The notes under the pieces: model-generated | Seen by the model: only the letters and a program-made list of their open reading frames with translations | What the model was told of the DNA's origin: nothing | Databases searched by the model: none | Shown here: positions 33,424 to 60,296 of the stretch, in pieces | Layout: each line of letters starts with the position of its first letter | How positions within the stretch are numbered: the stretch's first letter is position 1 | Position numbers and translations under genes: made by a program | NCBI GenBank assembly: GCA_903813345.2 | Contig: CAIIXF020000010.1 | Span: forward strand, 36,879,425 to 36,943,424 | DNA length: 64,000 bases | Direction of reading: 5' to 3' | From: Owenia fusiformis | Taxonomy: Eukaryota; Annelida; Polychaeta; Sabellida; Oweniidae

Positions 33424-35434
33424 TGTTTTTTATGTGTGTCTTTGTATGTGTTTTTATTTCATTCGTTCTAATGTATGATATGTTATTTAAGTTCAGTATG
33501 TATTATATGTTATTTTATAATCAGGCCGTGTTCATTTACGCTAAATGCTCATATTTAATGTTTTGATAGTAAATGAATAAATAAAAGCCTACTTTTAGCC
33601 CAAACATCAGTTTTCTCTGTGTTATATTATAATGAAGAGTGTACATTAACCCCTTTACAGAATTGAAGGCACTTTGTTGAAACATCGTAAATGTGTAATA
33701 TTTCAAATATTCATTTACCCTATACAATACACATACTTGTATATAAACAAGTATTTCCTCTTATGTGTTTTACTAGGTGTTAAACACATTTATGTTTTAC
33801 TGTGCATACTTTACACGACACAGTCATGTTGACATATCAATGCTCATTTCTACCAGGTCGTTCAATAAGTTCCCGGAAAAACGCTCTCATTTTGTTAGTT
33901 TGTAGTATTTTTATTGAAATTTTCACAGTATGTGTAAAATTTATTTAGAATTTATGTATAGAAATATTTTTTATACAGTATTTCATATTTATTAACTTAT
34001 CCTTGATAACGTGACGTCATAAATGGGTATGCGGGGCACTATTTTGACGTTAAAATTTCACAATTTTCAATTTATTCATCATATGTTCACGTTTTTGTAT
34101 TTGTTTTATTTCAACTGAATAAACAGTCCTGTTGCCATGGTAACTATGTGACATCATATAACTGCTGTACAAGATGCAAAAATTCTTGGATTGAAGACAT
34201 CATACATCTTTGCATGACATCACACAACCAATGCATGACATCTGTCATTAGTCAGACACTGAAAGAAATACAGATTATCTACTGGGAGGGATTCGATAAG
34301 GGTTTTATTCCGAAGGACATATCTGATTTTTGGATGAAACAAAACCAGACTATATCGTGAGATAAGTGCCAATTGACCCAAGGGAAAGATCAATACCCGG
34401 TGATTTCAGCGGGAAGTGGCGTTTCGTTCAGTGGATGAGCTGCGCGCGCACGCATAAATGTGATTATCCAATATAATTAGGGGAGGGCTATTTGAAGTAG
34501 TTTTTGGTCTCAGGCGCGACCCAGGGCTGTTGTCTTAAGGACATTTCGTTGAAAATGAGCCATTCGGCTGATAATTGGTAAGAGTTTGCGATCTTATAAT
34601 GTATAACTGTTACTCAGACACATATTTTGACACGATTCTGTTGGAAATAAGCTTTGAACCGAGAGATATTCACGATTGATATGCACATTTTTGATTGTGC
34701 CATTGCTTTTCTATTGCACAATCCATGTATTGATAGTAGAAACATTAATAATGCAGATTGGTTTACCTTCAATACATGGCAGACACTACATATCGGTCTA
34801 TTAATACCAGTTTGTGCCTTAAATAGTTTTATATTTCCATCCACGGCCTGGAGCCTGGGTGTGTTTGTCTCTTATGTGTATGCTTGTGCATGGACTTCTA
34901 ATCACTAGCAGAATTTAACATGATGCAAACTCGACATTATAACTCATGCTGTAACATTTTGACTTCGCTGGAAAACAATAGGAATTATTTTTCTTGCCAA
35001 TCAATCATGAATCACAATCAAAATTTCAGAATGATCAATCAGGCAATTGTCCGAATCAAGTTATAACATTATATGATATTCAGCAAGAAGTCCGGTAGAA
35101 ATACAGAATATTTAAACATCAAAGCTGAAAGTTAAAAGCTAATCTGTCAATTTTCTGTCTGCAAAAGAGCGTTTACATTTGACACAATAACAGACTGAGG
35201 CTTTGAAATCTAGGATTCCCCAGGAAAATATGACGTCATACTAATTAGCATAAGGATTTCCCTATTGGTATGGGTCGAGCCTTGTTCGAAAACACAATCC
35301 ATAAATACATGCTAATTTCTAAGGAGATAGGAAGTGTATAACGTGTTTATCGATTTTGTTTAAAGATTTAATCAATTATCAATTGAAATTGTTTAATTTA
35401 AAGCAGATATGAAATGGTATTTTTTAACCTAAAC
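33424..35434. other. Non-genic stretch
   Basis: No gene supported. GGTCGTTCAATAAGTTCCCG near 33857 resembles a mariner terminus, without a partner found. TGACGTCA at 34012-34019 and 35231-35238. TTTCAGCGGGA near 34406 echoes the repeats at 22.9 and 23.3 kb. Confidence 0.45.
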
Positions 35435-35627
35435 CAGTTGTCCGAAACCCAGTTGTCCGAAACCCAGTTGTCCGAAACCCAGTTGTCCGAAACCCAGTTG
35501 TCCGAAACCCAGTTCTCCGAAACCCAGTTGTCCGAAACCCAGTTGTCCGAAACCCATTTTTCCGAAACCCAGTTCTCCGAAACCCAGTTCTCCGAAACCC
35601 AGTTGTCCGAAACCCAGTTGTCCGAAA
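35435..35627 (+). repeat. 15-bp minisatellite CAGTTGTCCGAAACC, ~13 copies
   Basis: Thirteen units of exactly 15 bases. Most are CAGTTGTCCGAAACC; three carry CAGTTCTCC and one carries CATTTTTCC. Because 15 is a multiple of three it reads as an open pentapeptide repeat on both strands, with no sign of a gene around it. The same unit, inverted, forms the array at 40869-40989. Confidence 0.95.
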
Positions 35628-36981
35628 AATTTAGTCATAATTTACCAGATAAAGGGGGACGCACCTCAAGCCAGTTTCATGTCATGTATTTGGCAAAATT
35701 AATGGCATGGACGCATTCTGATGTATAGATCTCTCTCTCACTTTGAATTGCATCCATTACACGGCGTTACCAGAATGACAGGAACGGGGGGTTTATTTTA
35801 CATTGTGATTCTAAAAAAGGTCATCAAAACACAATATATATTACGGAACAGTTGATCTTATCTTATTCAATACATTTTATATAGGCAAAATAAAATGAAA
35901 CATTTTGAAACCGATAAAATAAGTTAACGCATAAAACTTTAAGAATAAACAGTACACATAGACGTCTATTACGTTGTCAAAATGTTTCGTCGCATTTAAT
36001 TTCTTAGTCTCTGTCTCTTATCAAATCGTAAAATGTAAAAGAACAAAACATTCTAAACGTAATCACTTGGGATTAACTGGAAACGAAGACAGGCTGTCCT
36101 CGTATCAAATTGGATGTTCTCCCATTCGCAAGAAGTTTCATTTTCGCCATGTACTCACTTCATCTTTTTGAATTTAATCTCTATTTCTCGAACAGAGTAC
36201 CTAAATGAAGAATAATTTTTGGTTTCAAAAGATGAACACGACGTCAACTTTACTAAATAAATGCCCACTGGCTTGGGAAAACTATTTCCCTTTTATGAAC
36301 GCCCATCACACATTGGAAAAATGTTGTTCCCTCTCAAAAAGCCCCATGGGGCATAAAGAAAATTGGTTTAGAAATTGTAGACCCCTATGTATGTTAATAT
36401 GTAAACGCCACTTTGCAATGAGAATAGCATAATTTAACTTTGTTTATTTGAAGATCTGTATCACCTGTATTTTCATCTTTCGACAGTTTTTATTAGGCTA
36501 AATACTAGCCCATGGAGGAATCGTTCAGTTGATATTTACTCTCAAATACACCCTTTACCAATGAAAGAGTGCTCGTTCATAGAGCTAGATGGATTGGAGT
36601 GAAATATGTCAAGTGGAACATTTCAGAGTGCCAAGACCAACTCATTTATGTTAAATGGACCTCTATAAGTGGGATACCTCCCATCCCACTTCATCCATTA
36701 ACGATTAAGGCATTAACATTTACATTGTTACAGCCTGCCATTTGTTACAAACACCGGGTGCTGACCCCTTAAATATAGGGTCTGAAGCTCAGATCTAGGG
36801 TCAAACGGATGGCAGAATATATAACTGTTAAGCAATCTTTGCCATTTCAATATATAGTTAAAATATTTAGTGAGGCAAGCAGATGTACGTATATGTTAAT
36901 ACAAATGTAAGTTTAAGGTTTTATGACTGTAAATTGAAGCATTATAGATTTTTGGATAAGCATGCAAGTCCTAGAGACATA
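35628..36981. other. Non-genic stretch
   Basis: No gene or notable repeat seen. Confidence 0.45.
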
Positions 36982-38054
36982 CAGGGTGTCCGGAAAGTAA
37001 AGATACAAATGGTCTCATTTCAAGAGATTTACGTGTTATGAGATGAAATTGCTACAGATTGTAGAATGACATTATAAGAATATATCCTACAACTGTCATG
37101 AGTTTTAGTTTCAAAATGAAAAAAGTTATGGTTGTTATGGTAACGAGAGTCGAGGGTAAGTGGAGCAACGTCACAACTGTGTTCAACAAATCTCTTTCCT
37201 TCTCATATGATCTTGGCACTCTATCATCTATTCCTATATTATATCAAATTATGTACCACAACAGCATAGGGATTAGTAATGTAACATTATTTGATCATTT
37301 CATATTAGTACTATTACTGAATATTCAGTATTTTCCCCATTATCTATACATTCTTGGTGCATCTTGACCGGCGGTTCAAAGACCTGACAAAACCGCTGAT
37401 GTTCATCTCTCAGATTGCTGATAACATTGGCTTCCAGCTGAGTCTCATTTGTATGTTGAACTTTTTACAAATATTGCTTTCAAATAGTCATTAGGGTAGA
37501 AGTCTAAAGAAGCTTTATCAAGTGAATATGTGACATTTTATAGAAAGGTTTAATGTCAAGACACTCCATTGTAAGATTTGTTTTTTGCTTTGTGAATTGG
37601 TGCATTGTGGAGATGCAATATTGACTTTCCTACTAATGGCCAGGGACCATTCTTCTAGGCACTTGTATAATTTTTTTTTTTCATTATACTGGTTAGTGAC
37701 ATAACATAGTTCTGATATGTAGCAATGATATCATTATACAAAAGAAAACACTATGGCAGCAATAATCCAATGATGAACATAAAAAACAAAGATAAAAAAT
37801 ACAACAAAAAAACACTGTTTCAAATGGTTGTCTTTTAGCAATTTTTCACTTTTATCGTTGTTCTGGAACTGCTCCACATACCCCTCACATCCGTAACCAT
37901 AACAACCGTAACTTAAACACATTTAGACTATATGTGATGAAAGTTGGTAGATATATTGTAATATTGTTTCTCTACAATCTGTAGCAATTTCATTTCAAAA
38001 AATCCAAATTTCTAAAAATAAGAGTATTTGTATCTTTACTTTCCGGACACCCTG
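36982..38054. mobile_element. Mariner-like element, ~1.07 kb, decayed
   Basis: TA-flanked ends CAGGGTGTCCGGAAAGTAAA and the inverse TTTACTTTCCGGACACCCTG. Arms remain similar for roughly 190 bases, including GTTATGGTTGTTATGGTAAC facing CCGTAACCATAACAACCGTA. The minus strand keeps a transposase trace, SLDFYPNDYLKAIF-like (around the third catalytic Asp), near 37440-37520, with several stops. Same size and layout as the 25.0-kb mariner but a different subfamily. Confidence 0.85.
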
Positions 38055-39044
38055 TATATTCAATCTTGCTGGAACTTATAGCAACTAAACATATTTGGAA
38101 TCATTTTGAATTAATCTTTGTGAAATTCAAAATAGTCAAATGCTGTTTCAACATACTTGGATTCTTTTAAAGCGATCCAAAAATAAAAAGTGGCCAATTT
38201 CAAATACAAACGTTTACATTACATTCTACCATGCAAACAATTACTTCCAGGGGCGGATCTGGGAACCAACAAGGGGGGCAAATTCAGGTCAGAGAAAAAA
38301 CTTCCCTAAAACCCAAAAGTTGGCCAAAATTTTGAAATTTTGAGGACCGTTTTCTTAAAAATTTGGCCTGAAATTGAAATATAAGGCCTTAAAAGGCCCA
38401 GTATTGACCAAAAGGGTCTTTTTAGGCTTTTTTCTGGGTTCACCAGTGACTCCTAAGATCATGATGGAAACTAATTGTAATGACAAGTGTGATATTTTCA
38501 GACAAGTAGAATCAGGCCCGTAGCCAGGATTTGCCAAGGGGGGGTTCAGTTTTCAAAAATTTCCAGGGGGGGTTCACATTTGACAATTTAGGCCCAAATA
38601 TGGTCAAAATCACTTGAAAAGTGCTAAAATGGTGAAAAACTGCACGATTTTGAAAGAATTTTTGGCCAGGGGGGGGGGGTTCGCCCGAATACTATAAACA
38701 TTTGTTCTTTCAATATCATAGAGTAGGCCTACTAATGTAATAGACCCACTTGACAATTATATTTTAGATGATTTTAAAATTGAATTAAGCTTGAAAAAGT
38801 ATAAAACTCTTGTCTTTGGCTATAAGGTACAAGACACTAAGTATACTTATTTTGATGAATGGTTAAACAACTTATGTTACATTATATTTGTAAACTATTG
38901 TAATAATGTTTTAAATAATTGCAATTGTATCTATTTAAAAAAAATATTGCAATATTGTAAAATGACCTGATGTATACAAAGTTATAAAATAAGAAATATA
39001 TACATGATTTAAAAAGAAAAAAGGAGTGCTGTCTCTGACTTTCT
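38055..39044. other. Remnants of hAT-like MITEs with G-tracts
   Basis: CAGGGGCGGATCTGGGAACC near 38250 and CCCGTAGCCAGGATTTGCCA near 38518 followed by G6-G10 runs (to about 38690) look like termini of degraded hAT-type non-autonomous elements. No gene. Confidence 0.4.
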
Positions 39045-39462: not shown

Positions 39463-40868
39463 ATAGTTTCTAAATAGCAGAAAAATCAATGAAATCTCGT
39501 GCTGCCATCTTTTATTCAGCTTTTAACTTGGGCTAGAGCTCCATTCATTTACATGTTAAAATCTTGGAAAATGGCTTAATTTCATGATTTATCAAAGTGT
39601 GTTTGTTGAATCTGTATAAAACTTGAATGATATACCACATGATGACCCTGTTTATGTACATGATGTGATTAAACATGCAAATGTTGATTGACATACAAAT
39701 AATCCACGGATTTAAAGAATTTTAGCATTGCATCTATGGACATTTGGCCCAAGTTATTTTAAATTGTCATAGAAAATTATTCAAATTACATAACTGTGTA
39801 AATCAAAGCTATTAAAGGAGAAAACATTTCACTGAATTCAAATATGCCATTTAAAAGAAGGTAATGTAAGTCATTAGAGGTCTAATATGCAAGTCTCTTA
39901 AAATCTCACGAAAAACGAGATTTAGCGAGATTTCAAAAACTATATGGAAACTATACTATTATATCGAGTGACAACATACTAACGACGAACATGACGTGGG
40001 GCAAAGGTTGAACTGTCTCAGAATGTATAAGGAACGAGGTAGAAATAAAGAATTCATATGAACGAGTCATGCAAGATACTAAAGGGATACAAATGCATTT
40101 TGATACTCAGTTTTTGGGCAATTAAAACTCACAAAACATTTTTTGATTCTGCAATAGTTAATGGTTGACATCTATGGCACACTAAAAACGAATTTTTTTA
40201 TGCAGGGTACGTACATGATACAGATCAAAGCTTGGCTCTACTACAAACTATTACACACTTACTTCAACAGTTCAATATATCGCAAAAACAAAAACGCAGT
40301 TTTGATTTTGAACAATATCACCAATGGGAGAAATTCTTAAATCTAAATGTTTGGAAAGGAATACGTTTCTACTAAAACATACAAACCTCTTATATTATGA
40401 TGAAAAAAGGATAGACATCTGATATGTATATATGCCACATATATAAGTTATACGAAATGAGCATATTTTATTGATTTATCGAAAATTTGGACGAAATCAA
40501 TGGGTGGTACTGAACAACCAAAATCTTCTTTTTAGATATTTTTCAGGGTAGAAATATTATCAATTGATATTGGAAAACATAATTAACCATATTTTATTGA
40601 GAAAAGGGAATGAAAAAATTATCAAATGTTGGCGGCAGTCTTGAATTTTCACCAAGAAGGAGTGCGATTCGTGCTGGACAATGCGGTTCAAAATTTGTAG
40701 AATGTCCATATAAGTCTATGTGCCGAGGATCTTGTAAGAATATATATATGATCGTGAACTTTCGGACCCATTATTGACCGGGCTAACCGATGTCAACGTG
40801 ATACCAATGCTGTCCTGATTCGCGAAGTTGCGACAAGATTCGTTACTAAGACATTTAATTTTTTAATT
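39463..40868. other. Non-genic stretch with piggyBac-like MITE fragment
   Basis: Bases 39965-40072 match the interior of the 27.3-kb MITE (CGAGTGACAACATACTAACG, then GAACGAGGTAGAA). Otherwise no gene. Confidence 0.5.
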
Positions 40869-40989
40869 TTCGGAGAACTGGGTTTCGGAGAACTGGGTTT
40901 CGGACAACTGGGTTTCGGACAACTGGGTTTCGGACAACTGGGTTTCGGACAACTGGGTTTCGGACAACTGGGTTTCGGACAACTGGGTT
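40869..40989 (-). repeat. 15-bp minisatellite, 8 copies, inverse of 35.4 kb
   Basis: Eight units of TCGGACAACTGGGTT, two of them TCGGAGAACTGGGTT. This is the exact reverse complement of the 35435-35627 unit, including the same G/C variant at the same position. Confidence 0.95.
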
Positions 40990-43372: not shown

Positions 43373-46300
43373 AACGTAATACAGTGAAAACAAATAAGTG
43401 TTAAAAATAGGCATTTTTCATGTAATTGAACATAGCTGAGACAAAACGTATTTTTGCTCAACATTTTATGTATTCTAAAATAGAATGCCTTTAAGTAGTA
43501 AAGGGTGCGTNNNNNNNNNNNNNNNNNNNNNNNCTAACCCTAGCCGAAAAGAAGTCCTAACGTGAGGACTGTTAGTTTTCTTTTACGCACCCTTTACTAC
43601 TCCTTTATCTGAAGAACGTCAGCATACTTTTTGATCGTTTCGATTGTAAGTAGCGTTGATATCTGGCTCCAAAATTGTGAATTTCGGTGAAATTGTCAAT
43701 GTAACAGGACAACACGCTTTTGAAAACATGTCATATCTCAATAATAAATGGTCGCATCTTTTAATTTTGGTTATGCTGGCATAGAGAACATTCATTCAGA
43801 GTGTGATGAGAGCACCGGATTTGATCTCCACCTATTACCGAATATATAGACTCAATAAAGTAAATGTAAAATTTATTCTGTGAAAATCGACATGGTCGTT
43901 AAAACACACCCACGGGGCATTAGGGGAATCCGAGAACAATAGGTTATATATGGTTAGCAAGTCCTTGATTCAGTTTATCAGACCATCATATTCCAAATCG
44001 TGATAATAATTGTGATTGAATTATAATGAGCATTATCTGAAAATTTCTGAAAATTCACAATTTTTCTTGTGAAAAACGACCAAGATGTAATTCAAACATG
44101 GGCAGCATTCTTGTGTAAAGATGGACACTATTCAAGAAAACATTATATCCACAATCTATTTTAACGAAAAGATTTTACGAAATAACCAACACGACCCCAT
44201 CTATGCGCGATTATGGTGTGAAACTGTGACAATCGACATGCGTGAAAATCGACATGGTTATACCATTGAACTCAAATCAGTAAATTAGTCATTTGTATAA
44301 ATCAAAGATGGATTAATTTGATTTTATATGATTACCAATACTCTGATAACACATTTATAACAGTTTTTCGGCAATTTACGCATAACGATCAATTGATAGA
44401 CATTGGAAAGATAACAGCTAAACAGTTTTCTCTTTGTTCAGCGTACCTTTTCCATTTTATACGTCTTTACAAAAATACGTGTTTCGTTCAGTGCATTCCC
44501 GGGGATTGCTGACTGCAATCATAAAGTCTATTAGCGTTTGGAATCAGTTTCCCTTTCAATGAATGCATCATTCTCAATGGTGAACAGCATAAACAGGCAT
44601 CTCTAATTTGTAATATGAAAGATTTTATAGCCTTTCAACGATGTTTATTTGCTTATTATGTTTTAATTACGATCTCGGATCTACTACTCGATACATTATT
44701 ACGATCTGATGTACAATATTCAGTATCCCTTCGTGAAACGTAATTCTTTGCAAAACATACAAAAAGAAAAACAAAAAGTAAGCAATGCTCGAGAATAAAA
44801 AATCAAAAAATCAAGACATGCGGTGCATAAAATTACGCTCCTCTTTGAAAAATATCGCCAATTGAACTAGCATAGAAACATAAAGCACGAGATACGCATG
44901 TGACGATAGAGGCAACAAAAGCAAGATGATTTTTCCCCTCTTCGAAAAATAAAACCGGGGGTAGATCACTAAAAATATATAGACTTCAATAGTTTCAACG
45001 AAAAACAAAACATCAGAAGAAACAAGTTTGATAGCGAAAGTTATGCGAAATCAGAAATCCGAAAAAGAATCGAGTCTGACACGAAAGAAATTTGTTTCTC
45101 TAAAGCGGAAATTTTAGCGACTAAAACAAAAATCTCAGAATAAACCAAAGCATAGTAATAAAAACACTTCCAGTTGCCATGGAAAAGGGTTCTTGTGATA
45201 GGAACTTGGAGAGGGAGAGGGGGGGGGGTCATCGGCGAAGCGCTCCGCAGATAATGGTGTCAAGAGAAACGTCTCTACACCAGTGCAGATGATTTCTATG
45301 ATTGAACTATACGTCATCCTTAATGGACTGGACTCGACATCAATATCATGTTTCAATTGATAACGTAGACTCGAGTAGAATAAGGACCGGCTTCTTGATT
45401 TGGAATATGTTAAAGGGACATTTCAGATCATATCTCGATAGATGATGTTTGTACTCCAATATGACGTAAATGGTTGTCCTGTTGTGATACATGCAGGAAA
45501 AACGTCACTACGTCAACCTGCAACTGGTTAAGCATGCATTAAAAGCTAAACCCAAAGGAAAAATTACTCAAATTGTAAAAACAAGTCAAAGAACCATACC
45601 AGGTATGTGAGATAAAAAAGAAAACATATGCCAAGTGTGTCAAAAAATTATTTTGACGACATGGCATCTGTCATCCCATTGTCTTTCAATCTAAAAATGT
45701 AAATCTTGGTTTCATGAATCAGTGCGATGTTTTGGTAAAGTTGGTGTGAAAAGAATGTAGAAAAGATTTGTTCAGTGCATATAAACTTTGCGGACGTAAT
45801 ACGTACATGTACATATACTTAGTTTATTCTCTTTGACGATATTTTAGAATAAAATGTGAAACACGACAGGGTTTTGACGGAAAATTTTACATAAACGTGG
45901 TCATATTTGGATACAAATGCACACTGGTTGTTTCTCAGTTCAGCTTGTTATATCCTACATATCAAAAATGTCGATTCGTGAAGTTAGCGGTCCCTAAAGT
46001 GAACTTTGTAACTCATTGCCATTTGTTTCTAATTGTCTTGTGAAAATCGACATGCGGATGAATAGTGAACTAGCCTAATGATCAATTCTTCACAAATAAA
46101 ACTGTTATCATTTTCTTATCGTCTTAAGCATCATTTTTCATGATCGCATCAATTCATGTTTCAAAAGAGTAGACTCTTTCAATTTTATTCAAATGAAAAA
46201 CAAAGGGGAAGTTAAAAATTGAGAAAAACTATAGATTTTATTGGTTCATGTTGACAAAGTGATGCACATCAAAAAGAAAAAGCTTGCAGTCCAAATCCAT

Positions 46301-46597: not shown

Positions 46598-46893
46598 TTT
46601 AAATGAATAGCACACAGCTTGGCATATGAAATATCCTACAAATGAAACAAAGCAAGACAAACCGGTTTCTAATACAAGGATTTATATTGGCTGTTGTACA
46701 TGTATTCTTTGAACACAATCACTCTTTGGATAACGTTTTCAAAATCATTATAAACGGATTACTTTATCTCAAAGACAATTTCAATAAACTGGATTTTACA
46801 GAACTCCCCTTATTTCTTAAAAATGGACTGATCCAGTTGATTCGCCTGGAGCCGCCATATTGTTTTTATACGGGATGCTAATCGGAACCCTTT
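46598..46893 (+). repeat. Left copy of inverted repeat R, inner piece
   Basis: About 85% identical to the reverse complement of 50765-51043, including TTTCTTAAAAATGGACTGAT and GAGCCGCCATATTG. It lies about 1.07 kb upstream of the methyltransferase ATG. The short frame in it is incidental. Confidence 0.85.
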
Positions 46894-47156
46894 AAGATAA
46901 CAATTTTCATGCAATTTTCATTCTCTAAAAATTACAAGAAACTACCTGAAATACATGTAAATAATGAATAGTACTATAACGTCATTTCGAAGGGCCTTTG
47001 GCCCTCGGTCCAATATTTCATAGACTGTTATGGGGGATTTGCGAAGCAGGGTGACACACATTAGCAGAAAACACGATCGCCACTTAAATTATAATGTTTA
47101 TTCTGTCCGTTTCAACCCTTTTTACATGTTTACACCATTGTCTAATGAAGACCAAA
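46894..47156. other. Non-genic, with short GGGCC hairpin
   Basis: A tight hairpin CGAAGGGCCTTTGGCCCTCG lies at about 46990-47010. Otherwise nothing seen. Confidence 0.5.
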
Positions 47157-47284
47157 CAAAGCCCCGGATGTCGTGCCGTTTCTCGTTTCGTTTGGTACAC
47201 AACTAAGCCCCGGGTATTAACAAAGCCCCGGATGTAGTGTCGTTTCTCGTTTCGTTTGGTACACAACAAAGCCCTGGGTATTAA
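47157..47284 (+). repeat. 64-bp tandem duplication
   Basis: Two units, 47157-47220 and 47221-47284, nearly identical (CAAAGCCCCGGATGT, then CGTTTCTCGTTTCGTTTGGT). Confidence 0.9.
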
Positions 47285-47593
47285 ATAAGCCCTTGGTTGT
47301 ATCAAGAAGTCCTCCCAAGAAAATGTTCAATACTGCATAACAAACGCTGGATAAAGATTTTACAAATGCATTCAAAATGTCAACTTATCAAAGCACGAAG
47401 ACTATGGACTTTAACATGGAAGATCTTAATCTAATTTTTATGGTGTGACAGAGATCGTCATTTGTAACAGAATATTGGCAACCGTTTGGAAACTAAACGT
47501 CATATCATAACAATATTGTGTACTTCTAATTTTAATGCTGTGTGCTACTTTAATACATCATAAAACAAATATTGAATTCTGTGATCGTTTAAT

Positions 47594-47673
47594 ATCTGTA
47601 TACATTTCTTGGGGATGTATTCACCTCGCCCTTCTGGCTGCGGTGAATACCCCTTCAGAAATATATGCAGATA
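47594..47673. repeat. Hairpin element, ~32-bp arms
   Basis: ATCTGTATACATTTCTTGGG...GTATTCACC on the left pairs with GGTGAATACCCC...ATATGCAGAT on the right around TCGCCCTTCTGGCTGC. It sits about 290 bases upstream of the methyltransferase start. Confidence 0.75.
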
Positions 47674-47960
47674 TTTAACTCCACAGAATTCAAAATTATT
47701 GCCCGCAGAAATGACGTTATTAGTATTATTACCACCGTTTATGACCAGGGCTGAAATAGCAAGAAAATCTTTCGCACTGAACGATATCTAATTTCCCGGG
47801 GAAAATTGACGGTCGTTATTGCATTATTGGCCGGTATTATGGCCCGCCACTATGACGACACATCTGCTCAGGTCGATACAGTAAAATAAATGTCTTCTAA
47901 ACTAGCACTTATACCCGGCCCTAGGACAGGCCCGATAAGGTGGTAATAATATATTGAACA
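47674..47960. promoter_or_regulatory. Presumed 5' flank of the methyltransferase gene
   Basis: The sequence before the ATG has several GGCC/CCGG-containing blocks (47828-47850, 47914-47938) and no clear TATA box at a fitting distance. Promoter function is inferred only from position. Confidence 0.25.
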
Positions 47961-50670
47961 ATGTATCAAAATGTCTCTCATGCCAATGAATCAATTTTCC
48001 AGATGCGGGACCAAGCGTGGAAATTGACTGTAATTGTTGTGGCTGTCCTTGTTGCATTTGTTTTACTGACAGTAACCATGAGAGACGAGCGTCACAACAA
48101 GGTGGCAGTTCCTACATTTGTGCAACAAACTCCAGCAGGTCATCAGAATCTGAAGTCGTTAAGAGATATCTATTTGAAAACTTTGAAAGTGACATTGACA
48201 GGATATGCCTTTAAATCAAAATCTATTAAAGTGGGTGCTGGTGAGATTGCAATCGGGAACCAAGCAATGAATGATGACGCACGAAAGCGAGGTGCTGATT
48301 GGCCAAGCGTTGGGTAAGCATATATCTTGGTTCATATTCAGTTGAGCTTATCGGGGGTTGTCTATTTTATGTCCCCACCATATAGTCTAGTATCGTGTCA
48401 TACTACTGTCTAGCCTAGTATTGTCAGTCTAAGCGCGTCTGTCTGTCTATCCATCCATCCATCCATCCGTCTGTCCGTCCGATATTTTCTCCAAAATTGC
48501 TCTGGCTATTGTTTTTAGTTTTGATAGTTATTTTGACTCTCAATAAAAGGTTAGATATGCATCAAAACTCACAAAATTGTCACAAAATGTAGCTTAATTT
48601 AGGTCAAATTTGTAAATATGTAGCAGTTTAGAAACCAATGTCAGATTGTAGCGAAGACATATTAGGGATGTTGATGGTATTCGTAATCTGAAAGTGAGCT
48701 TTACTGGGAAAGTGAAAGTTAGATTTCAGGGATCATGTCATAAGGGTTTAGAAAAGACAATTTATTTCAAAATTTATTTCAGATCATACCCAAAAAAGTT
48801 TAGGCCAAAAAGGCCCCAATATGTGGGCCTTTTGGGCATTTCCCCAAAGAACTCAGTTGTTTTATTAGTATAAATTATATCAATGACGATATCTACTCAT
48901 TAGGAAGTATAAAAGTTCTGAAATATGGAGAAAACCCCTACTTTTACGTAAAAAAATATAGCGGCTAAACAGAAAAATTGGGAGTAGGCGTAGTTATGTA
49001 GAGCAAGTGATTGGTAACATTAAGGTTTTCAAGGTTATAGGTAAACTTTTTCGCCACCCACTACAACATCTGGCAAAGCTCAAAGAATTGTGTGCCGGTC
49101 TGAGTATAAGGAGGGTTAATCTCTTTGAGACTATTTAAACTGGTCAATCAACTGTTCTATTAATAAAATCCATGACAAGAGAATTTACTTTGTGTCATAT
49201 TTCTATTTAAATGTGACCCACTGTAAATAACTAATAAAAGGATCTTGAAATGTTTGTTTTGGTTAAATTGTGTTCAGTTGATATGTTCGTATGTTGCTAT
49301 TCTCTAAAGAGTTCACATTTGTGTTTTTTAGCTTTTAAACAATTGATTTATCAATTATACGTATAATAAGGTTTTAATGCTATTGAACTAATGATATGAC
49401 CCCTGAAATCGGACTTTCACTTTCCTTTTAAAGCTCACTTTCGGGTTCCGAATAGCTTCAAAGTAGGGATATTGAAGCTATTCGAAATTCTGAAATGATT
49501 TTATTGTCTAAATCTTTATGACATGATCCCTGAAATCTGACTTTCACTTTCCCTGTAAAGCTCACTTTCAGATTACGAATAGCTTCAAGTTCCCTATTAC
49601 CCTGAACAAAAATATTTATATTTAAGTGTCATAAATTGTTTCTTGTTAAAGTATGCATTTCATGAGCAGACTCTTGTTGCATATTTTTCTACAGCACATA
49701 GAAGTAGGTGATAAAAATGTGTGTGGGGTCATAGGCGTAGCCATGGGGGGGGGGTGCGATTGCTTTAAAATTGCTTAAAATGCTTTCTATTTGAAGCTTC
49801 TAGTTAAATTTTGAAGGAAGTTGCATCAGTTTTTGTAAAATTCAAATCAAATCTTTTTTTGCCTTGCTTATGCGAGCAACGATCGCTCCCCTTGACTGAA
49901 AACCGAAAAATGGCGATCGCACCCCCTGGCTACGCCCCTGGGTGTAGTAATATAATATTTCTTAATTATAATATTTGTTTAATTGATACAGGTACACAAT
50001 GATTGGCACAATTGGTTTGGAGAATGTCCAAGAGCTGTTAGAACATGTAATCCAAGATGGCGTCCCTGGAGATTTCCTGGAGGCGGGAGTTTGGAGGGGT
50101 GGGGCTAGTATGTTTGCTAAGGCAATAATGAATTCTTACAACCAACAAAATCGTCAAACTTGGGTTTGCGACTCATTTGAAGGACTACCACCAGCAACTC
50201 AGGCAAAGGATAACGATCACTGGTCAAAAATGAAAGCTCTAGCCGTCAGTAAAGAAATTGTAAGAGGACATTTCGACGAATTTTTCTTACTTGATGAAAC
50301 GGTACATTTTATACAGGGATATTTTGTGTACTCATTACCATGTTTGAGAAAAACACTAACTGAAAGAAATAACAAAATAGCCGTTCTGAGGGCTGATGGA
50401 GATATGTATGAAAGTTTGATGGATATCTTATTTAATCTTTATGAGTTTGTTCCTGTCGGAGGGTATATCATTATTGATGATTGGGGAATTCAAGTTGCTA
50501 AAAAAGCAGTTCAAGAATTCAGGGCAATGCATGACATTAAGTCAACAATTTTTCCATTCCGGGGTATATCTATGTACTGGAAAGTGGAATCAAAGATTCC
50601 TGTAAAGTACAGCTGGTATGAAGAATTCATGAAAACTAGGAAACTTGATGCATCGAAAAAACAATGTTAA
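47961..50670 (+). CDS. TylF/macrocin O-methyltransferase family protein, membrane-anchored, two exons
   Basis: Exon 1 is 47961-48313, ending in donor G|GTAAGC. Exon 2 is 49992-50670, after acceptor TTGATACAG. The join keeps frame and gives 343 residues. It restores WPSVGYTMIG, matching the start of the catalytic domain in this family. Residues ~21-40 are one hydrophobic segment (KLTVIVVAVLVAFVLL) after a short polar N-terminus, suggesting a type II signal anchor, so the enzyme probably faces the secretory lumen. SAM-binding motifs: GDFLEAGVWRGGAS (144-157, acidic Glu148), CDSFEGLPP (177-185). Metal-site motifs: RADGDMYES (251-259), IIIDDWG (277-283, Asp280/Asp281). Bacterial relatives (TylF, MycF) are Mg-dependent sugar O-methyltransferases in macrolide biosynthesis; the animal substrate is unknown. 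The C-terminus after ~320 is short and basic. The 1.68-kb intron is full of repeats. Met15 is an alternative start; an upstream non-coding exon is possible. Confidence 0.85.
48440..48482 (+). repeat. CTGT/CCAT microsatellite in the methyltransferase intron
   Basis: (CTGT)n, (CCAT)n and (CCGT)n tetramers in a row, about 43 bases. Confidence 0.85.
48650..49600. repeat. Intronic inverted repeat with duplicated right arm
   Basis: A left arm at about 48655-48750 (TAATCTGAAAGTGAGCTTTA, then GATTTCAGGGATCATGTCAT) is inverted relative to two right arms in tandem at about 49394-49470 and 49520-49600. Transcribed as part of the intron, it could fold into a long stem of about 80-90 pairs. Confidence 0.75.
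49730..49940. mobile_element. hAT-like MITE in the intron, 211 bp
   Basis: Ends CATAGGCGTAGCCATGGGGG and its inverse CCCCCTGGCTACGCCCCTG. The CAGGGGCGTAGCCAGGGG terminus is typical of hAT-type MITEs. The flanking eight bases match only partly (TGTGGGGT against GGTGTAGT). It lies 51 bases upstream of the exon 2 acceptor. Confidence 0.65.
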
Positions 50671-50764
50671 AGTCTATCTCAATGAATAAGGAATGAGGAT
50701 TTTACGATACTTTGCGATAAAAAATGAATGCAGATGAGATTTGTGATGACTGGGTCCATTTCCT

Positions 50765-51122
50765 TAAAGGTTCCGATAAGCTTCCCGTATAAAAACAATA
50801 TGGCGGCTCCAGTCAAGTCAACTGGATCAGTCCATTTTTAAGAAATAAGGGGAGTTTTGTACAATCCAGTTAATGGAAATTGTCCTGGAGATAAAGTAAT
50901 CCGTATATAATGATTCTGAAAACATTATGTTATTGAGATAGTGATTGTTCAAATAATACATGTATAAAATCCAATATAAATCCTTGTATTAGAACTGCTT
51001 TGTTTCATTTCGATGATATTTCATATCAAGCTGTGTACTAATACCTTGTGGGGAAAATATGTCAATTTTTCATACACAAACAGAAGGTCCGAAACTTCAC
51101 CCATAAATGTGAAATTGATGAT
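50765..51122 (-). repeat. Right copy of inverted repeat R, unbroken
   Basis: Reverse complement of 46598-46893 plus 43284-43372, joined here without the 3.2-kb segment. It starts about 95 bases after the methyltransferase stop and would lie in the 3' UTR. Confidence 0.8.
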
Positions 51123-53192: not shown

Positions 53193-53694
53193 GTCAAAAT
53201 AAAAATCTCCCGTTTATAAATGTGTGACGGCCCATAATATACTAATGTTTGGCACACTGTACGCCGTCTTAACTTATCGTGTTTTGTGGGACGATATCAC
53301 GAGATGTGTGGTTAAAATAACAAATGAGTTGTTTTACATGTTAGTACAAGCTAATGAGAGATTTTGAGAATGGTTTTTAGGTACGCTGTTCATATCTGGA
53401 CTATGCATGCCCTACGACGATAAGCGTCACTCCACACAAAATCAGGATCAGTCGTGGGTTCAATTCCCGCCGAATGACTTTTACATTAGCCATTGGCATA
53501 GGAGTCGATCGTGTATCAAATTCAACAAGCAAAATGAACCAAGGACTCCTTTTATAACAAAATGATTATCTAATCAAATTTTGAGATTTTTGATTTACCC
53601 AATATAATGTGGGTGTTAGAGATACACAAAGGGATTAGACCTCAATATTTAGCAATATTTTATACATCATACTATGTATAACATCTGTATCATC
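53193..53694. other. Non-genic, with tRNA-like SINE remnant
   Basis: No protein gene. At about 53455-53472 GTGGGTTCAATTCCCGC forms a tRNA T-arm with a B box GGTTCAATTCC. CTGGACTATG upstream (~53396) resembles a tRNA anticodon-arm segment of invertebrate tRNA-derived SINEs. A clear A box is missing. Confidence 0.4.
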
Positions 53695-54311
53695 ACTGGT
53701 ACTGCACTCGATTACGCTGTTTTTAGAAACGGATCCGTTTCAGTGACAAGAAGGCTAAGGTTCCATTAAGAAAGTTCGGGAAGATTTTTCCTTTTCTTTG
53801 ATTTTTAAGATCTGCACTTTTAACATGTTCTGTTTTCGTAATAATATAGTGAGATAGTGAGGTATTAAATCGATCTAATTGTTCTCAAACGTGTATATTT
53901 TCTTAAAACATACTGGCACACGTTTGTGATGAATAACCCAGATGCTAGTAACGTCATTATAAATTCAAAATTCAGTCAAAGTAATATCATATTTGAAATC
54001 TACATGTAAAATTACATCTAAAAATGTGGTTTTAAAAAGTGTTTATCAACTTTGAAAAATTAATTTTCTTTGAAAATGTGACTTCTAGCTCGGGGAGATT
54101 ACCCATAGACCCCATGCTATAAAATGACAAAAAATGAAATACAGGGTGACCGGAAAAAAAGGAGACCATTGAAATAGGCAATATCTCCTAAAATAGACTA
54201 GTGACATCAATGAAATTTTGCATACATCAGGACAGTTCTATGGAAATTTGTTCCTGAAAGTGTCAATACAAGCAGTCAACTGGTTCAGGAGCTATGATCA
54301 TTTACATAACA

Positions 54312-54806
54312 ATACAATCCACCGCCCCGACTGCTGCAAAAGGAATTGTGAAACTCCGTGGAGTAAAAGATGTACGGGGATCGTTTGTATATGTGAATAA
54401 CCTGAGGATGGAACCTGATGTATCTGATGTCTCATTACGCGATGCAGTCGTGCAGCACGCTCGTAACTCTGGGGTGCGTGTAATGCGTGCTGAGATTGTG
54501 AAGAATAAATTCTGCGACGACAAAGTGGGATGCAAACTTTGCGTTCCCGAGACTGATGTACATGTTTTACTATCAGAAAAATTTTGGCCCGACCCATCAA
54601 TAGTCTGCAGGCGCTGGGAACGACGGGCACCTAGAGCAGCCATGCGACGAGAAAAACCGATTCCAGTTATAACTGGATACCGACGACAGGCTACCCATGC
54701 CGATGATCAGTCCGACTATGACTGTGGAATCGACAACCTAGACAGGATGAATGACGCCTACAAGTCACAGATTGATTGGTATGAATATGATAATAATGGC
54801 CTATAA
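54312..54806 (+). CDS. LINE ORF1 protein, C-terminal part
   Basis: About 164 residues from the LINE, open to a stop at 54804-54806. It holds a conserved-looking segment VSLRDAVVQHARNSG, RAEIVKNKFC, VGCKLCVPETDVHVLL, and KFWPDPSIVCRRWE. Similar VGCK...FWP...R.W blocks occur in ORF1 proteins of invertebrate LINEs, where they follow RNA-binding domains. The N-terminal part is lost by truncation. By chance the frame stays open into the mariner flank and picks up an ATG at 54294, which would add six foreign residues. ORF2 begins 56 bases before this ORF ends, in the +1 frame, so coupled or re-initiated translation is likely in the full element. Confidence 0.65.
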   Translation: MQSTAPTAAKGIVKLRGVKDVRGSFVYVNNLRMEPDVSDVSLRDAVVQHARNSGVRVMRAEIVKNKFCDDKVGCKLCVPETDVHVLLSEKFWPDPSIVCRRWERRAPRAAMRREKPIPVITGYRRQATHADDQSDYDCGIDNLDRMNDAYKSQIDWYEYDNNGL

Positions 54807-57800
54807 TAAAACAATGATAAATTCTTACACTTTCCTATTACTTGTTGTGACACTACACATTTGCACATCAGCCCCGAGCGCAGAATTTCACTCCGTGTTA
54901 TCATTAACAATGTCACCTCATGAGAACAAATTACGATTTGGGCAATGGAACTGTAGAGGTCTTGGGGCCTCTAACCGCTATATATTGGACATTTTGGCGA
55001 AATGTGATTTTTTCGCACTAAGCGAACATAAACTCTATGAATGTAATCTCCACAAGTTAGATGATTTGTCAAATGATTTTGTATGTTTGGCTAAAAGCAG
55101 TAGTATTTTGGATCCTATGCAATGTGGGACTGTTTGGGGCAGTGGCGGTACCGCCATTTTTTGGCGAAGATCCTTAGACCATATGGTCGTGCCTATGCTA
55201 GAGCTGTGCTCGGATAGGATTTTATGTGTTAAATTAGTGTTTGATGATTCTGCATTATTTATATTTTCTGTGTATCTGCCACAGCAAAATTGTCATCATA
55301 CCACTTTTACTGAAACTTTGGATATTTTGAATGATTTTGTTGAGCGTATATCTAATGATGGTAATGTTGTGATATTTGGCGATGTGAATGCAAATTTAGG
55401 TACTTTACAGGGATCACATGGTGTAAGGGATACACAGACGCAGAGTGGCATAGAATTGCACAATTTTTGCCTGAGTAATGAGCTATGGGCAGTTGATACA
55501 AACAGAGCTACTTTGGGTCCTGTGCATACATTTGAAATGTTGAGAAATGGTAATTACTATAGGTCATATATTGATCATATTATTGTGTCCCTTCCTCTAT
55601 GCGGTAATGTTTCCGAATGTGTTATATTAGACAATGAGCCTGGCAACACGTCAGACCATCTCCCCATAATCACGACTTTTAGAGACCTCACTAGTGTTAA
55701 GCATGTAATTCAAAGAAATGATTGTGTTGGATATGCGTGGAATAAATTATCATCTGATGAAATTAAATCAACGTACACATCATCTCTTGATTTGCAATGT
55801 AAGGGCATTCTGAATGATTTACGGTTAATTGGTGTAAATAATTTGGAAAACTGCCAAATTGATAGTTATATCTTGAAACTGGTAAATGGCCTGATTGAAT
55901 GCTCTAATGCACATATCCCCATTAAGAAGTTCTCAAAGCATGTAAAGCCATTCTGGAATGATGAATTAACCAGATTAGTAAAGTTAAAGAAGAAAAGATG
56001 GCGTGAGTGGGTGTCGGCTGGTCGACCTCGAAATGCGGATAATGTAATTAGGGCCCAATATAAATCTGCCAAATGTGCTTTTAGAAAATGTTTTAGATGT
56101 AGTGAGTTTATGTATGAACAAAATGAGCTTAATCGTCTATACAGGTCAGAATCACTTGATCAGCGTTACTATTGGCATCTTCTCAATAAGAGCCGAAATA
56201 GGGCTTCTAGGCGTCTGTCTCCAATTAAATCTGATAATGACGTCATCGTAAGTGACGAGGCTGGAATAAGGGATGAATGGCGCACTCACTTTGCTCGTTT
56301 GGCAACCCCTTCTGATAAGCCTCATTTTCACAGCCATGCCAAGTGTGAAATTGAAAATGAAATTATGCATATTAAGCAAACATCATATTTTGAAGATAAT
56401 ACTTTCTTTGATGAACCATTTCAGGATAGTGAAGTGAGTAATGCCATATCACGGTTGCATAATAATCGTGCATGTGGATCGGATACGATATGTGCCGAAC
56501 ATTTAAAATATAGCAATGACACTGTAATTTCGATCATATGTACCCTTTTTAATGCAACCATGTTAAACGAATACACTCCCATGAATTTTAGGTTTGGTAT
56601 ACTGATACCTATACTAAAGGCAGGAAATAAAGATCCTTGTAATAAAGACAATTCCAGAGGCATCACTCTGATGAACATGTTGCGTAAAGTGTACGATCAT
56701 ATTGTGTTAAAAAGAATTGGATCCCTTGCAAAAAATATTATGCCTAACTTACAAGGTGCTTCTCAGAGTCATTGCTCTGCTGTTCATACTTCCCTTTTAG
56801 TTCAGGAAACCATTGCCCACAATGTCGAAAAGCATAGAAATGTAATATTAGCCACATTAGATATTAGAAAAGCATTTGACACCGTTTGGTTAGATGGATT
56901 GATGGTCAAACTACATAAACTTGGTATCCGTGGCAAACTGTGGCGTATGCTTTATGATAATTACCATAAATATGAATGTGCCGTTCGTGTAGGAAGTTCA
57001 AATACACTTTCTAAACCTTTTAATGTCATGCAGGGCGTCCACCAAGGGGGTGTCCTATCTATGCTATTTTATCAGTTGTACATGGCTGACCTTATTCAGG
57101 ATCTATGTGAAATGAATATAGGTGGCCACATTGATGATGTAAATTGTGTATGTCCTTCTTATGCGGATGACATGACCATTATTGCCACAAATCAAAAGGA
57201 TATGCAACTTATGTTAAACGCTGCCTTTGAACATAGTAGAAGATGGCGATATGAAATCCATCCAGCGAAATGTAACTTTCTGACATTTAATGATATGGTC
57301 ACTGATTCAAGTGTTAAAGGTCATGTCGTTCTCAAGATAGGTGACACGAGAATTCCAAAGGTCAATTTCACTGTTCATGTTGGTATTCCAATATCTAGTA
57401 AAAATGATATCTCACAATATGTTAATGATCGCTGCACTAGTGGTAAGCGAAAATTCTGCTCACTTTTGGGACTGGGGCACAAAACAGGTGGTTTGTCACC
57501 CTTAACAGCATCAAAACTGTACTGGGCCTTTTCTATTCCAACCATGCTGTTTGGGGCACCAGTTATAAATTACCAAGCGTCAGATGTTGAAAAGCTTGAA
57601 TTGACTCATAGGGAGATTGGCAAACGTATCCAATTTTTCCCCAAAACCTCAGCCAATCCTAGTGCAACGATGCCGTTGGGATGGTTGTCAATAGACGGCT
57701 ATATTACAGTGTTGCAGATGATGTATCTCTGGAGTTTACTTAGGTTTAATAATATTTACAGGGATATAACTATAACACGGTTAGTAAAGATGTTTCATGT

Positions 57801-58410
57801 CACTTATGACAACCATGCCGATATTTTCTCTCCTATCCGGCGCATTTTCCTTAAGACCAAAATGCTAGGAATTGAAAATCTGGTTAAAAATGCGCTGGAC
57901 TCAGGATATCTTCCGTCGAAGAGGTCATGGAGACTGCAAATTGTCAATGCTGTAAGATCCGTCGAGGTCAAGCAATTTTTCTTGCAATGCTCATGTTATG
58001 GCAAACTTTTATACCTACGTGACTATGTCACAGACTTAAAACCTTGCATATGGTGGTTGATTTGTCAGAAATATCCTAAATGTCAAAGCCAGTGTAAAAC
58101 TATGATGCAATTGATATGTAACGCCCATGTATTAAATACGAACAACTTCAATGGTTCAAAACGATGTATATTGTGTAACCTCTGTGAAACTGAAACAATT
58201 GAACATTTTATATTAAGATGCCCTATGTATGAACCATATAGGCATAACATATTTGAAGCCCTTGGCTGTCGTGGTGACAGTATGGGTGTTATTATGAAGA
58301 AAGTTTTAGGTCTCTCAGATGTTTCATGTGAGACGTTAATAATTGTATCATCATGTGTACACAAAATGTACAATCACAGAGCCAACCTGTTGGCTCTGCT
58401 TGACACATAA
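54751..58410 (+). CDS. LINE ORF2: AP endonuclease and reverse transcriptase, 1219 codons
   Basis: One unbroken frame. An AP-type endonuclease starts at residue 61: RFGQWNCRG (Asn67), SEHK (Glu92), GDVNAN (Asp211, Asn213) and SDHLPI (Asp302, His303) are the expected catalytic positions. The reverse transcriptase follows: NSRGITL (634-640), LDIRKAFDTVW (catalytic Asp704), QGVHQGGVLS (761-770) and SYADDM (Asp806, Asp807). A C-terminal zinc finger has Cys1139, Cys1142, His1152 and Cys1157. All key residues are present, so the enzyme could be active. It would nick target DNA and copy its own RNA there. The Met at 54751 overlaps ORF1; Met54 (54910), just before the endonuclease, is another possible start. 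I see no RNase H. The clade is not certain; L1-like/RTE-like features are mixed and a tree is needed. Confidence 0.9.
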   Translation: MTPTSHRLIGMNMIIMAYNKTMINSYTFLLLVVTLHICTSAPSAEFHSVLSLTMSPHENKLRFGQWNCRGLGASNRYILDILAKCDFFALSEHKLYECNLHKLDDLSNDFVCLAKSSSILDPMQCGTVWGSGGTAIFWRRSLDHMVVPMLELCSDRILCVKLVFDDSALFIFSVYLPQQNCHHTTFTETLDILNDFVERISNDGNVVIFGDVNANLGTLQGSHGVRDTQTQSGIELHNFCLSNELWAVDTNRATLGPVHTFEMLRNGNYYRSYIDHIIVSLPLCGNVSECVILDNEPGNTSDHLPIITTFRDLTSVKHVIQRNDCVGYAWNKLSSDEIKSTYTSSLDLQCKGILNDLRLIGVNNLENCQIDSYILKLVNGLIECSNAHIPIKKFSKHVKPFWNDELTRLVKLKKKRWREWVSAGRPRNADNVIRAQYKSAKCAFRKCFRCSEFMYEQNELNRLYRSESLDQRYYWHLLNKSRNRASRRLSPIKSDNDVIVSDEAGIRDEWRTHFARLATPSDKPHFHSHAKCEIENEIMHIKQTSYFEDNTFFDEPFQDSEVSNAISRLHNNRACGSDTICAEHLKYSNDTVISIICTLFNATMLNEYTPMNFRFGILIPILKAGNKDPCNKDNSRGITLMNMLRKVYDHIVLKRIGSLAKNIMPNLQGASQSHCSAVHTSLLVQETIAHNVEKHRNVILATLDIRKAFDTVWLDGLMVKLHKLGIRGKLWRMLYDNYHKYECAVRVGSSNTLSKPFNVMQGVHQGGVLSMLFYQLYMADLIQDLCEMNIGGHIDDVNCVCPSYADDMTIIATNQKDMQLMLNAAFEHSRRWRYEIHPAKCNFLTFNDMVTDSSVKGHVVLKIGDTRIPKVNFTVHVGIPISSKNDISQYVNDRCTSGKRKFCSLLGLGHKTGGLSPLTASKLYWAFSIPTMLFGAPVINYQASDVEKLELTHREIGKRIQFFPKTSANPSATMPLGWLSIDGYITVLQMMYLWSLLRFNNIYRDITITRLVKMFHVTYDNHADIFSPIRRIFLKTKMLGIENLVKNALDSGYLPSKRSWRLQIVNAVRSVEVKQFFLQCSCYGKLLYLRDYVTDLKPCIWWLICQKYPKCQSQCKTMMQLICNAHVLNTNNFNGSKRCILCNLCETETIEHFILRCPMYEPYRHNIFEALGCRGDSMGVIMKKVLGLSDVSCETLIIVSSCVHKMYNHRANLLALLDT

Positions 58411-58530
58411 TTTCTCTATCACTTTATTTTTATGTTTTCCAAAACAACAACTTTTTTATCACATAATTTAATCTTATCCTTGTATTTTATATTTTATATG
58501 TAAACCATATGTATACTAAAATGTATTCTC

Positions 58531-58764
58531 TCATATAAATGAGGCAATAAATATACAATACAATACAATAACATGCTCCAAATAGGCGCAATTGAGACCA
58601 ACGCAGAGCTGGATACATTTGGCAAATACCCTTACATATTCCGACCTTGTTATGGCATTACATTTAGCATTTATTGCCACCTTTAGGTCAGCAATTGTCT
58701 CAGGATTGTTTTGGTACACATTGTCTTTCAAATTGCCCCACAAAAAGAAATCAGGTGGATTCAA
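58531..58764 (-). pseudogene. Mariner transposase C-terminal fragment, minus strand
   Basis: The frame contains NPPDFFLWGNLKDNVYQNNP and TIADLKVAI, then CVGLNCAYLEHV. NPPDFFLWG with its Asp is the third catalytic motif of mariner transposases. It lies in the left arm of the palindromic mariner; its last codons come from the LINE junction. The N-terminal DNA-binding part is absent. Confidence 0.8.
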
Positions 58765-59019
58765 ATTTGAGGTGTATGGAGACGAAGCTTATCTGACCTA
58801 TGGCTTCTGACTCAGTGGTCCCACTCAGTTACAGTATCATCCTAAGGAGGTTTTGGGCAGCCCTTGGTTTCCATATGGGATTTAATTGTGCCATATAGTG
58901 GTTTTAGTAACATGGCACTATGCCCAATACCTAAAGTGACTCTTAAGATTGGGTAAATCAGCACTTTGGCAACAGGATGATGAACCACATGTCAGATAAC
59001 CCTTCATTGCCATTACAGC

Positions 59020-59215
59020 CTAGACTTGAATCCTGCTGATTTCTTTTTGTATGGATATTTGAAAGAAAATCTATACCAAAACAATCCTCAGACTATTGTT
59101 GACCTAAAGAAGGCAATCACTGCTATATGTAATGCCATAATAATGCCATAGAGGGCAGAACATGTAAGGGTAGTTTGCCATATGAATCCAACTCTGCGTT
59201 GGTCTCAATTGTGCC
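59020..59215 (+). pseudogene. Mariner transposase C-terminal fragment, plus strand
   Basis: Inverted partner of the minus-strand fragment. It reads SLDLNPADFFLYGYLKENLY, then NNPQTIVDLKKAI, with a stop after NAIIMP. It is more decayed than its partner. Confidence 0.75.
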
Positions 59216-59738
59216 TATTTGGAGCATGTTATGTAAATGATCATAGCTCCTGAACCAGTTGAATGCTTGTATTGAAACCTTCAGTAACAAATTTCCATAT
59301 AACTGTTCCAGTGTATGCAAAATTTCATTGATGGCACTTGTCTAGTTTAGGAGAAATTGATTACTTCAATGGTCTCCTTTTTTTCCGGTCACCCTGTATC
59401 TTTTCTTTTAGTGGATAGATAATATTTTGCTTTCCTGGACATATTTTCATGAGTATAAGTATCAGACACATAAGGGTTATATGAAAATTGAGCCACTTAA
59501 ATTGATAATATTCAAGTTTAAGGGAACTTTCTTATATACCTGCCATGTTAATTGACCCGAATCAGCCACCTGGTGGTGAAACTGGTAACTACCTACTCGC
59601 ATTTGGGTAATTCAATGTTGTGTGAATTCTGCCTACAACATGTGATATATGGAAAAGAAAATCGAAATTCGAGGGTCCCACATTTTGTTTCCGAGACGGA
59701 TTCGTTTCGTTAACTAGTTTGAAGAGTGCAGTACCAGA

Positions 59739-60296
59739 GATCATGTAAGCATATCCAATCTAATAAGTTTACTAAATCTAAACAAAGAGCCATGTATATT
59801 ATTGATTATTTTTATATTTCATATCTTAATTGTTATTTGGAATCGTTATTTACTCGTATATATACCACATATAACACCTCGTTCTCATTCTATGATGTAC
59901 AGAATTAATGAATACCTATGCATCTTTCACGAGCAATATTCTCCGAAGCACATGAGGAGCTAAGGGAATATTGAACTTGTGAAGGGTGCAGGCCATTCAT
60001 CGAAATAATAAAATAGATGAGATATTTGTTTATTCACTGTTCTTATTCCTCACTCCCAAGATCTATGTCTAATGTCTATATCAATAATCTGTAATAAGCT
60101 CATTTAAAACAGATATATAGTTTAACAATGATACAATTTGAACAAAATACAATTGAACCCTTTAACATTTAAAACCAGATCGATGGTTTAAATTCATTTT
60201 AAAATTGGATGGATAAGATACACTTGTGACGACTGTCAGGCTACTGCGTTGACATCGCCACTGTTTACCAGTATACACCCCCAAAATGCAATCTGA
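59739..60296. other. Non-genic stretch with one hairpin
   Basis: A hairpin lies at 59919-59990: TGCATCTTTCACGAGCAATA against AATATTGAACTTGTGAAGGGTGCA, with a CCGAAGC-containing loop. TATATCAATAATCTGTAATAAGC near 60080 resembles TGTCAATAATCTGCAAAAGGC near 9756. No gene. Confidence 0.5.

Follow-up and report, generated by a model that had tools for sequence, protein, structure and literature searches.

Transposons nested within transposons, probably four levels deep, at one locus of Owenia fusiformis

Introduction

How many mobile elements are stacked one within another at a single locus, and in what order did they arrive? The locus considered here lies in a 64,000-nucleotide stretch of contig CAIIXF020000010.1 (assembly GCA_903813345.2) from the annelid Owenia fusiformis, which we call the window and from which all positions are counted. 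An initial annotation of the letters had described a three-level nest at this place, with a long interspersed nuclear element (LINE) inside a palindromic mariner element inside a foldback element. We find that mobile elements are stacked here over at least three levels, probably four.

Nested transposons have long been known, and reading their order is standard. According to PMC2517846 (which cites Giordano et al. 2007), mammalian genomes contain many nested clusters in which an older element is broken up by a younger one, and these interruptions have served to order families by their relative age. The present analysis differs from that one in concerning one locus and other families, without genome-wide counts. 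The locus opens no old question; it would show in what order four element families arrived relative to each other in one genome, and it is mainly useful as a starting point for building the host's repeat library.

Results and discussion

Because insertion sits inside insertion, the locus itself records the sequence of arrivals. We assign a probability of roughly 0.8 to four stacked transpositions in the order foldback, an element of about 430 bp with terminal inverted repeats (TIRs), mariner-type element, and LINE. The first, third and fourth arrivals are marked by target duplications at exact boundaries (ATCAT for the foldback, TA for the mariner-type element and ATAACA for the LINE), and the second arrival we infer. 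All four features claimed in the initial annotation were located within 1-2 bp of the positions it gave.

The outer foldback element

The outermost layer and the copy with which it was compared consist of the following features.

53694-59739: outer foldback-type DNA element, with inverted ends and ATCAT on both sides
53689-53693, no strand: ATCAT, the 5-bp target duplication to the left of the outer foldback, read from the sequence
59740-59744, no strand: ATCAT, the 5-bp target duplication to the right of the outer foldback, read from the sequence
53694-53929, plus strand: left foldback piece, comprising left end, centre and the greater part of the right arm, with deletions when compared with the 31-kb copy (shuffles and alignments)
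59615-59739, plus strand: right foldback piece, the distal end of the right arm (shuffles; 76% over 108 columns to 31648-31754)
31240-31777, no strand: second foldback copy, nearly palindromic, flanked on either side by TTAAT and used as reference for the outer element (alignments)

The outer element starts with the end sequence CACTGGTACTGCACTC at 53694, and the inverted partner of that end terminates at 59739. Its 5-bp duplication, ATCAT, is an addition to what had been annotated; arbitrary pairs of 5-mers in the window are identical at a frequency of 0.0016. Aligned with their flanks, the two halves of the 31-kb copy agree at 256 of 285 positions once 32 gap columns are set aside, and its long inverted arms together with the TTAAT duplication identify it as a foldback-type element. 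Scored against this copy, both outermost pieces of the nest exceeded every one of 1000 mononucleotide shuffles (0/1000 each), which, with the inverted ends, bears out the proposal that the outer arms match the foldback family at 31.2 kb. An alignment of one outer arm with the other told little: the end-to-end score was 0 (481 and 371 bp) and the local score 84 (453 and 346 bp), with 69 as the largest score among shuffles. The reason lies in the make-up of the left piece, where the left end and the centre are joined by a portion of the right arm.

Galileo (P superfamily) and Tm1 (Mutator/foldback) likewise consist of long inverted arms that hardly any sequence separates, a build shared by the present foldback. 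Their target duplications measure 7-9 bp, whereas the present foldback has a 5-bp duplication and ends of CACTGGT. We saw no autonomous relative of the foldback, which is not known to have a transposase.

A probable fourth layer

Between the foldback pieces and the mariner-type element lie two stretches that look like the halves of a further TIR element.

53930-54141, plus strand: left half of the probable fourth layer, ending in the TA of the mariner, with a 21-bp TIR, TGAATAACCCAGATGCTAGTA (shuffles; inverted repeat with 59594-59614)
59397-59614, plus strand: right half of the probable fourth layer, with the reverse-complement TIR, TGAATTACCCAAATGCGAGTA, at its right end (shuffles for 59399-59614; inverted repeat)

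The initial annotation had proposed that removing 54142-59398 would let the rest align to the foldback copy at 31239-31779. This closure failed, with scores of 174 (forward) and 170 (reverse complement) for the 789 bp left. Excising 53930-59614 instead leaves 361 bp, with global scores to the 31-kb copy of 209 (forward) and 232 (reverse complement), a comparison between remainders of 789 and 361 bp in which the unmatched part costs gaps. A closing test made at every level can in this way expose an overlooked layer.

The inner stretches bear little resemblance to the foldback: shuffles scored as well against the 31-kb copy in 95 of 1000 cases for the inner 212 bp on the left (53930-54141) and in 845 of 1000 for the inner 216 bp on the right (59399-59614). 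The 428 bp around the mariner seem to belong to neither the foldback nor the mariner. An imperfect 21-bp inverted repeat, TGAATAACCCAGATGCTAGTA against the inverse of TGAATTACCCAAATGCGAGTA (18 of 21 alike), starts at 53930 and ends at 59614, so that it adjoins both breaks of foldback homology; the ends of the candidate element read TGAATWACCCARATGC. Because foldback homology is lost and an inverted repeat stands at both breaks, the simplest reading is that a TIR element of about 430 bp inserted into the foldback first and itself received the mariner later.

Several observations weigh against this reading. On its own the 21-bp repeat is weak, as so high a score was also reached by 25 of 2000 simulated pairs and by 66 of 2000 pieces taken at random from the window, and past the 21 bp the inner stretches pair like shuffles (score 41; mean 39 and largest 63 over 200 shuffles). 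There is also no clean target duplication: a 3-bp duplication, TAA, needs the boundary moved inward, with the element starting CCC and a target of TGAATAATTCA. Excision under this TAA model aligns to the foldback about equally well (211 and 230), so alignment cannot decide between the two boundary models. No second copy of the element was found in the window, either by BLAST at an expectation value (E) of 0.001 or by a pattern with up to three mismatches.

The best-surviving alternative has three levels only, with the 428 bp as part of a longer foldback form from which the 31-kb copy has lost its interior. Foldback families do vary in length, the window offered a single copy for comparison, and the repeat at the edges is weak taken alone and does not extend inward. 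Against this, both arms of the 31-kb copy cross the break without the 428 bp, which would call for two matching deletions or for one that preceded formation of the palindrome, and the inverted repeat adjoins both homology breaks; we consider a three-level stack unlikely. The annotated order of LINE in mariner in foldback is supported by the duplications at three levels and by the LINE empty site described below, and the number of levels then counted was probably one too small.

The mariner-type palindrome

The third arrival comprises the following features.

54142-59396: mariner-type element, TA-flanked and palindromic (TIRs and TA)
54140-54141, no strand: left TA target duplication of the mariner-type element, read from the sequence
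59397-59398, no strand: right TA target duplication of the mariner-type element, read from the sequence
54142-54311, plus strand: outer part of the left mariner arm, TIR CAGGGTGACCGGAAAAAAAGGAGACC (91% to the reverse complement of 59227-59396)
58574-58803, minus strand: inner part of the left mariner arm, with a transposase-like C-terminal reading that begins NPPDFFLWGNLKDNVYQNNPETIADL (alignment, translation)
58804-58984, no strand: unpaired centre of the mariner palindrome (repeat alignment)
58985-59396, plus strand: right mariner arm, uninterrupted, with the LINE empty site and a transposase-like C-terminal reading (alignments)

As had been annotated, a TA-flanked mariner-type element lies between the outer arms: the TIR TACAGGGTGACCGGAAA occurs at 54140 (plus) and 59398 (minus) with no mismatches, where 0.06 occurrences per window are expected by chance even with up to three mismatches allowed. 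The inverted ends are identical over TACAGGGTGACCGGAAAAAAAGGAGACCATTGAA, and the TA duplication with matching TIRs is as expected of the Tc1/mariner superfamily. Both arms carry transposase-like C-terminal readings in opposite orientation, NPPDFFLWGNLKDNVYQNNPETIADL on the minus strand of the left arm and NPADFFLYGYLKENLYQNNPQTIVDL on the plus strand of the right.

The mariner label rests on the TIR, the TA and this C-terminal motif, which we take to resemble the DFFLWGYL motif of the mariner group. Neither Pfam nor PDB confirmed the likeness. The left piece had no match in Pfam and, searched alone in PDB, only Pre-hexon-linking protein IIIa (E 1.9), which is unrelated and taken as chance; the right piece matched only DUF261 in Pfam (E 0.14), likewise taken as chance. 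A text search of the literature for four motif words gave no paper.

With the LINE excluded, the mariner arms close as had been foreseen, with 355 of 400 aligned positions identical and 16 gap columns set aside (387 of 438 and 144 gap columns when flanks are included). Since each arm carries a transposase-like C-terminal reading, the element is most readily interpreted as a palindrome made up of two 3' ends. A pair of separate mariner insertions in opposite orientation is an unlikely explanation. In its favour, divergence between the arms rises toward the centre, as if two copies had been combined (17 mismatches in 231 outer positions vs. 28 in 169 inner ones, Fisher P = 0.006, at a split of 231 picked after the repeat pieces had been viewed). 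On the other side, of the four TIR sites found in the window with up to three mismatches no more than two lie in the region, both facing outward with TA outside, and long-armed mariner-type elements also occur at 36980-38056 and 25037-26088. Differences between the arms fall on the three codon positions 5, 6 and 7 times in 38 codons (nonsynonymous divergence, dN, 0.16; synonymous divergence, dS, 0.25); these counts do not favour two lineages under coding constraint. Divergence of the arms as two transposase genes under selection was rejected as a candidate, the differences being too few and without skew.

The element at 36980-38056 is also TA-flanked, has the TIR TACAGGGTGTCCGGAAA and inverted arms that are 77% alike over about 188 columns, and shares with the nested mariner only the terminal 17 bp (BLAST). 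The third mariner-type element, at 25037-26088 (TACAGGGTGTTCCAAAAG), has inverted arms of 194 nt that are 81% complementary. Given these two, members of this group in the window seem often to have long arms.

Bari elements, as described in PMC4877112, are Tc1/mariner transposons with long terminal inverted repeats (LIRs), of which the D. rhopaloa Bari has two identical long TIRs and some copies are broken by unrelated nested elements. The present element is alike in its TA target and long inverted ends and differs in that its arms extend into transposase-like coding sequence on both sides, with no intact transposase seen. Its TIR sequence is presumably of another group than that of Bari.

The LINE

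The innermost layer interrupts the left mariner arm.

54312-58567, plus strand: LINE, an APE-type retrotransposon of the non-long-terminal-repeat class, 4256 bp (boundaries, domains, tail)
54306-54311, no strand: left LINE target duplication ATAACA, 6 bp (overlap of flanks)
58568-58573, no strand: right LINE target duplication ATAACA, 6 bp (overlap of flanks)
54312-54806, plus strand: remnant of open reading frame (ORF) 1, open from the LINE 5' boundary to a stop
54751-58410, plus strand: LINE ORF2, open, 1219 codons from the first ATG (Exo_endo_phos at 64-303, RVT_1 at 629-845, weak zf-RVT at 1108-1160)

The flanks of the LINE overlap by exactly ATAACA, so the perfect duplication reported in one mariner arm is present. 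The uninterrupted right arm holds the single-copy empty site on the other strand, TTTACATAACATGCTCC; this is the empty site of the LINE only, and none is shown for the mariner or the foldback. ORF2 matched Exo_endo_phos (E 1.4e-10) and RVT_1 (E 5.5e-30) in Pfam, with zf-RVT at 0.0062, under the cut-off of that family, and its best matches among solved structures were LINE-1 ORF2 protein chains (PDB, E 1.3e-18; query 54910-58410). The ORF1 remnant had no Pfam match at E 0.01. The 3' tail consists of three ATACA units, ATACAATACAATACA, at 58553-58567, just before the right ATAACA.

Endonuclease and reverse transcriptase in ORF2, together with the target duplication and the 3' tail, identify an APE-type LINE. 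Like others of this type it has both enzymes within one ORF2, an upstream ORF, a short target duplication and a simple-repeat 3' tail; it differs in having a tail built of ATACA units. The ORF1 remnant is open right from the 5' boundary, for which reason we infer that the LINE is 5' truncated. Its open ORF2 may derive from a recently active family. The first seven bases of the LINE, ATACAAT (54312-54318), also begin the tail, a likeness that may be accidental or may result from template jumping at the 5' junction.

Order of arrival

Target-primed reverse transcription is the known behaviour of LINEs, and cut-and-paste that of the other classes represented here. The history would have begun when a foldback-type DNA element entered ATCAT, presumably by cut-and-paste, and left a 5-bp duplication. 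The element of about 430 bp, with its imperfect TIRs, would then have entered the right arm of the foldback, the palindromic mariner-type element a TA of this smaller element, and finally the LINE the left mariner arm by target-primed reverse transcription. Layers are less well preserved the deeper they lie in the stack: 73-83% to its relative for the outer foldback (six of seven BLAST pieces vs. the 31-kb copy; the seventh, of 20 nt, is at 100%), 89% for the mariner arms, and an open ORF2 for the LINE. The percentages stem from different comparisons and provide no clock. The nest as a whole is most likely without function as a unit.

An assembly artefact joining unrelated pieces is highly improbable: the window does contain a gap or mask (one run of 23 N at 43511-43533), but no N lies within 53.5-60.0 kb, and target duplications that close to the base at three levels are not expected from a random misjoin.

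Possible relatives

Transib/RAG-type elements have ends that start with CAC and 5-bp target duplications. It is very doubtful that the foldback family (31240-31777, 53694-59739) would be a non-autonomous passenger of such a transposase; if it were, the foldback would have been assembled from two ends resembling recombination signal sequences. Three of the four foldback ends start with CAC (the end at 59739 reads CTC), and both copies have a 5-bp duplication. The heptamer CACTGGT agrees with CACAGTG, which we take to be the consensus, at 4 of 7 positions counted by eye. Both arms of the 31-kb copy carry the nonamer-like ACCAAAACG, which matches 7 of 9 positions of the consensus we assume, at spacer 22 behind the heptamer position (six spacers were tried); 413 of 127992 9-mers of the window reach this agreement. 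The motif is also part of a local palindrome, and in the outer foldback copy agreement is 5 of 9 at both ends.

A limited literature search, made without a repeat library, found no published description of these particular families. The contig collections searched for relatives comprise viruses and prokaryotes and have little bearing on an animal family. Among viral contigs, 10 stretches fitted the LINE ORF2 pattern and none was confirmed, and the exact foldback end and exact mariner TIR had 0 matches each; among genome contigs, 5 stretches fitted ORF2 and none was confirmed. The transposase fragment gave 8 pattern matches and 2 loci of 19 residues at 63%. Both loci were taken as chance because the match at the one of the two that was inspected lies in a 380-amino-acid ORF that, in our judgement, reads like a phage head-region protein.

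Other repeats in the window

GC content ranges from 31 to 41% in 2-kb steps, and the window is rich in repeats, with 31 rows of tandem repeats and 74 inverted-repeat pairs of at least 40 nt within 8 kb (the longest 25 of the 74 are listed). Nothing in the window reached the gathering score of an Rfam family. At 46608-51040, a pair of inverted repeats (289 and 278 bp) flanks about 4 kb with a TylF-type O-methyltransferase ORF (49999-50670; Pfam TylF, 1.9e-61). The pair belongs either to one large TIR element that encloses a gene or to two small elements facing opposite ways; a clear target duplication was not seen there. Two arrays of a 15-bp unit (CCAGTTGTCCGAAAC), at 35434-35627 and 40868-40989, lie in opposite orientation about 5.3 kb apart, are 98% complementary over 122 nt, and are possibly the ends of one element. 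Two further tandem arrays, with units of 171-173 bp, lie in opposite orientation at 5515-6178 and 7698-8381.

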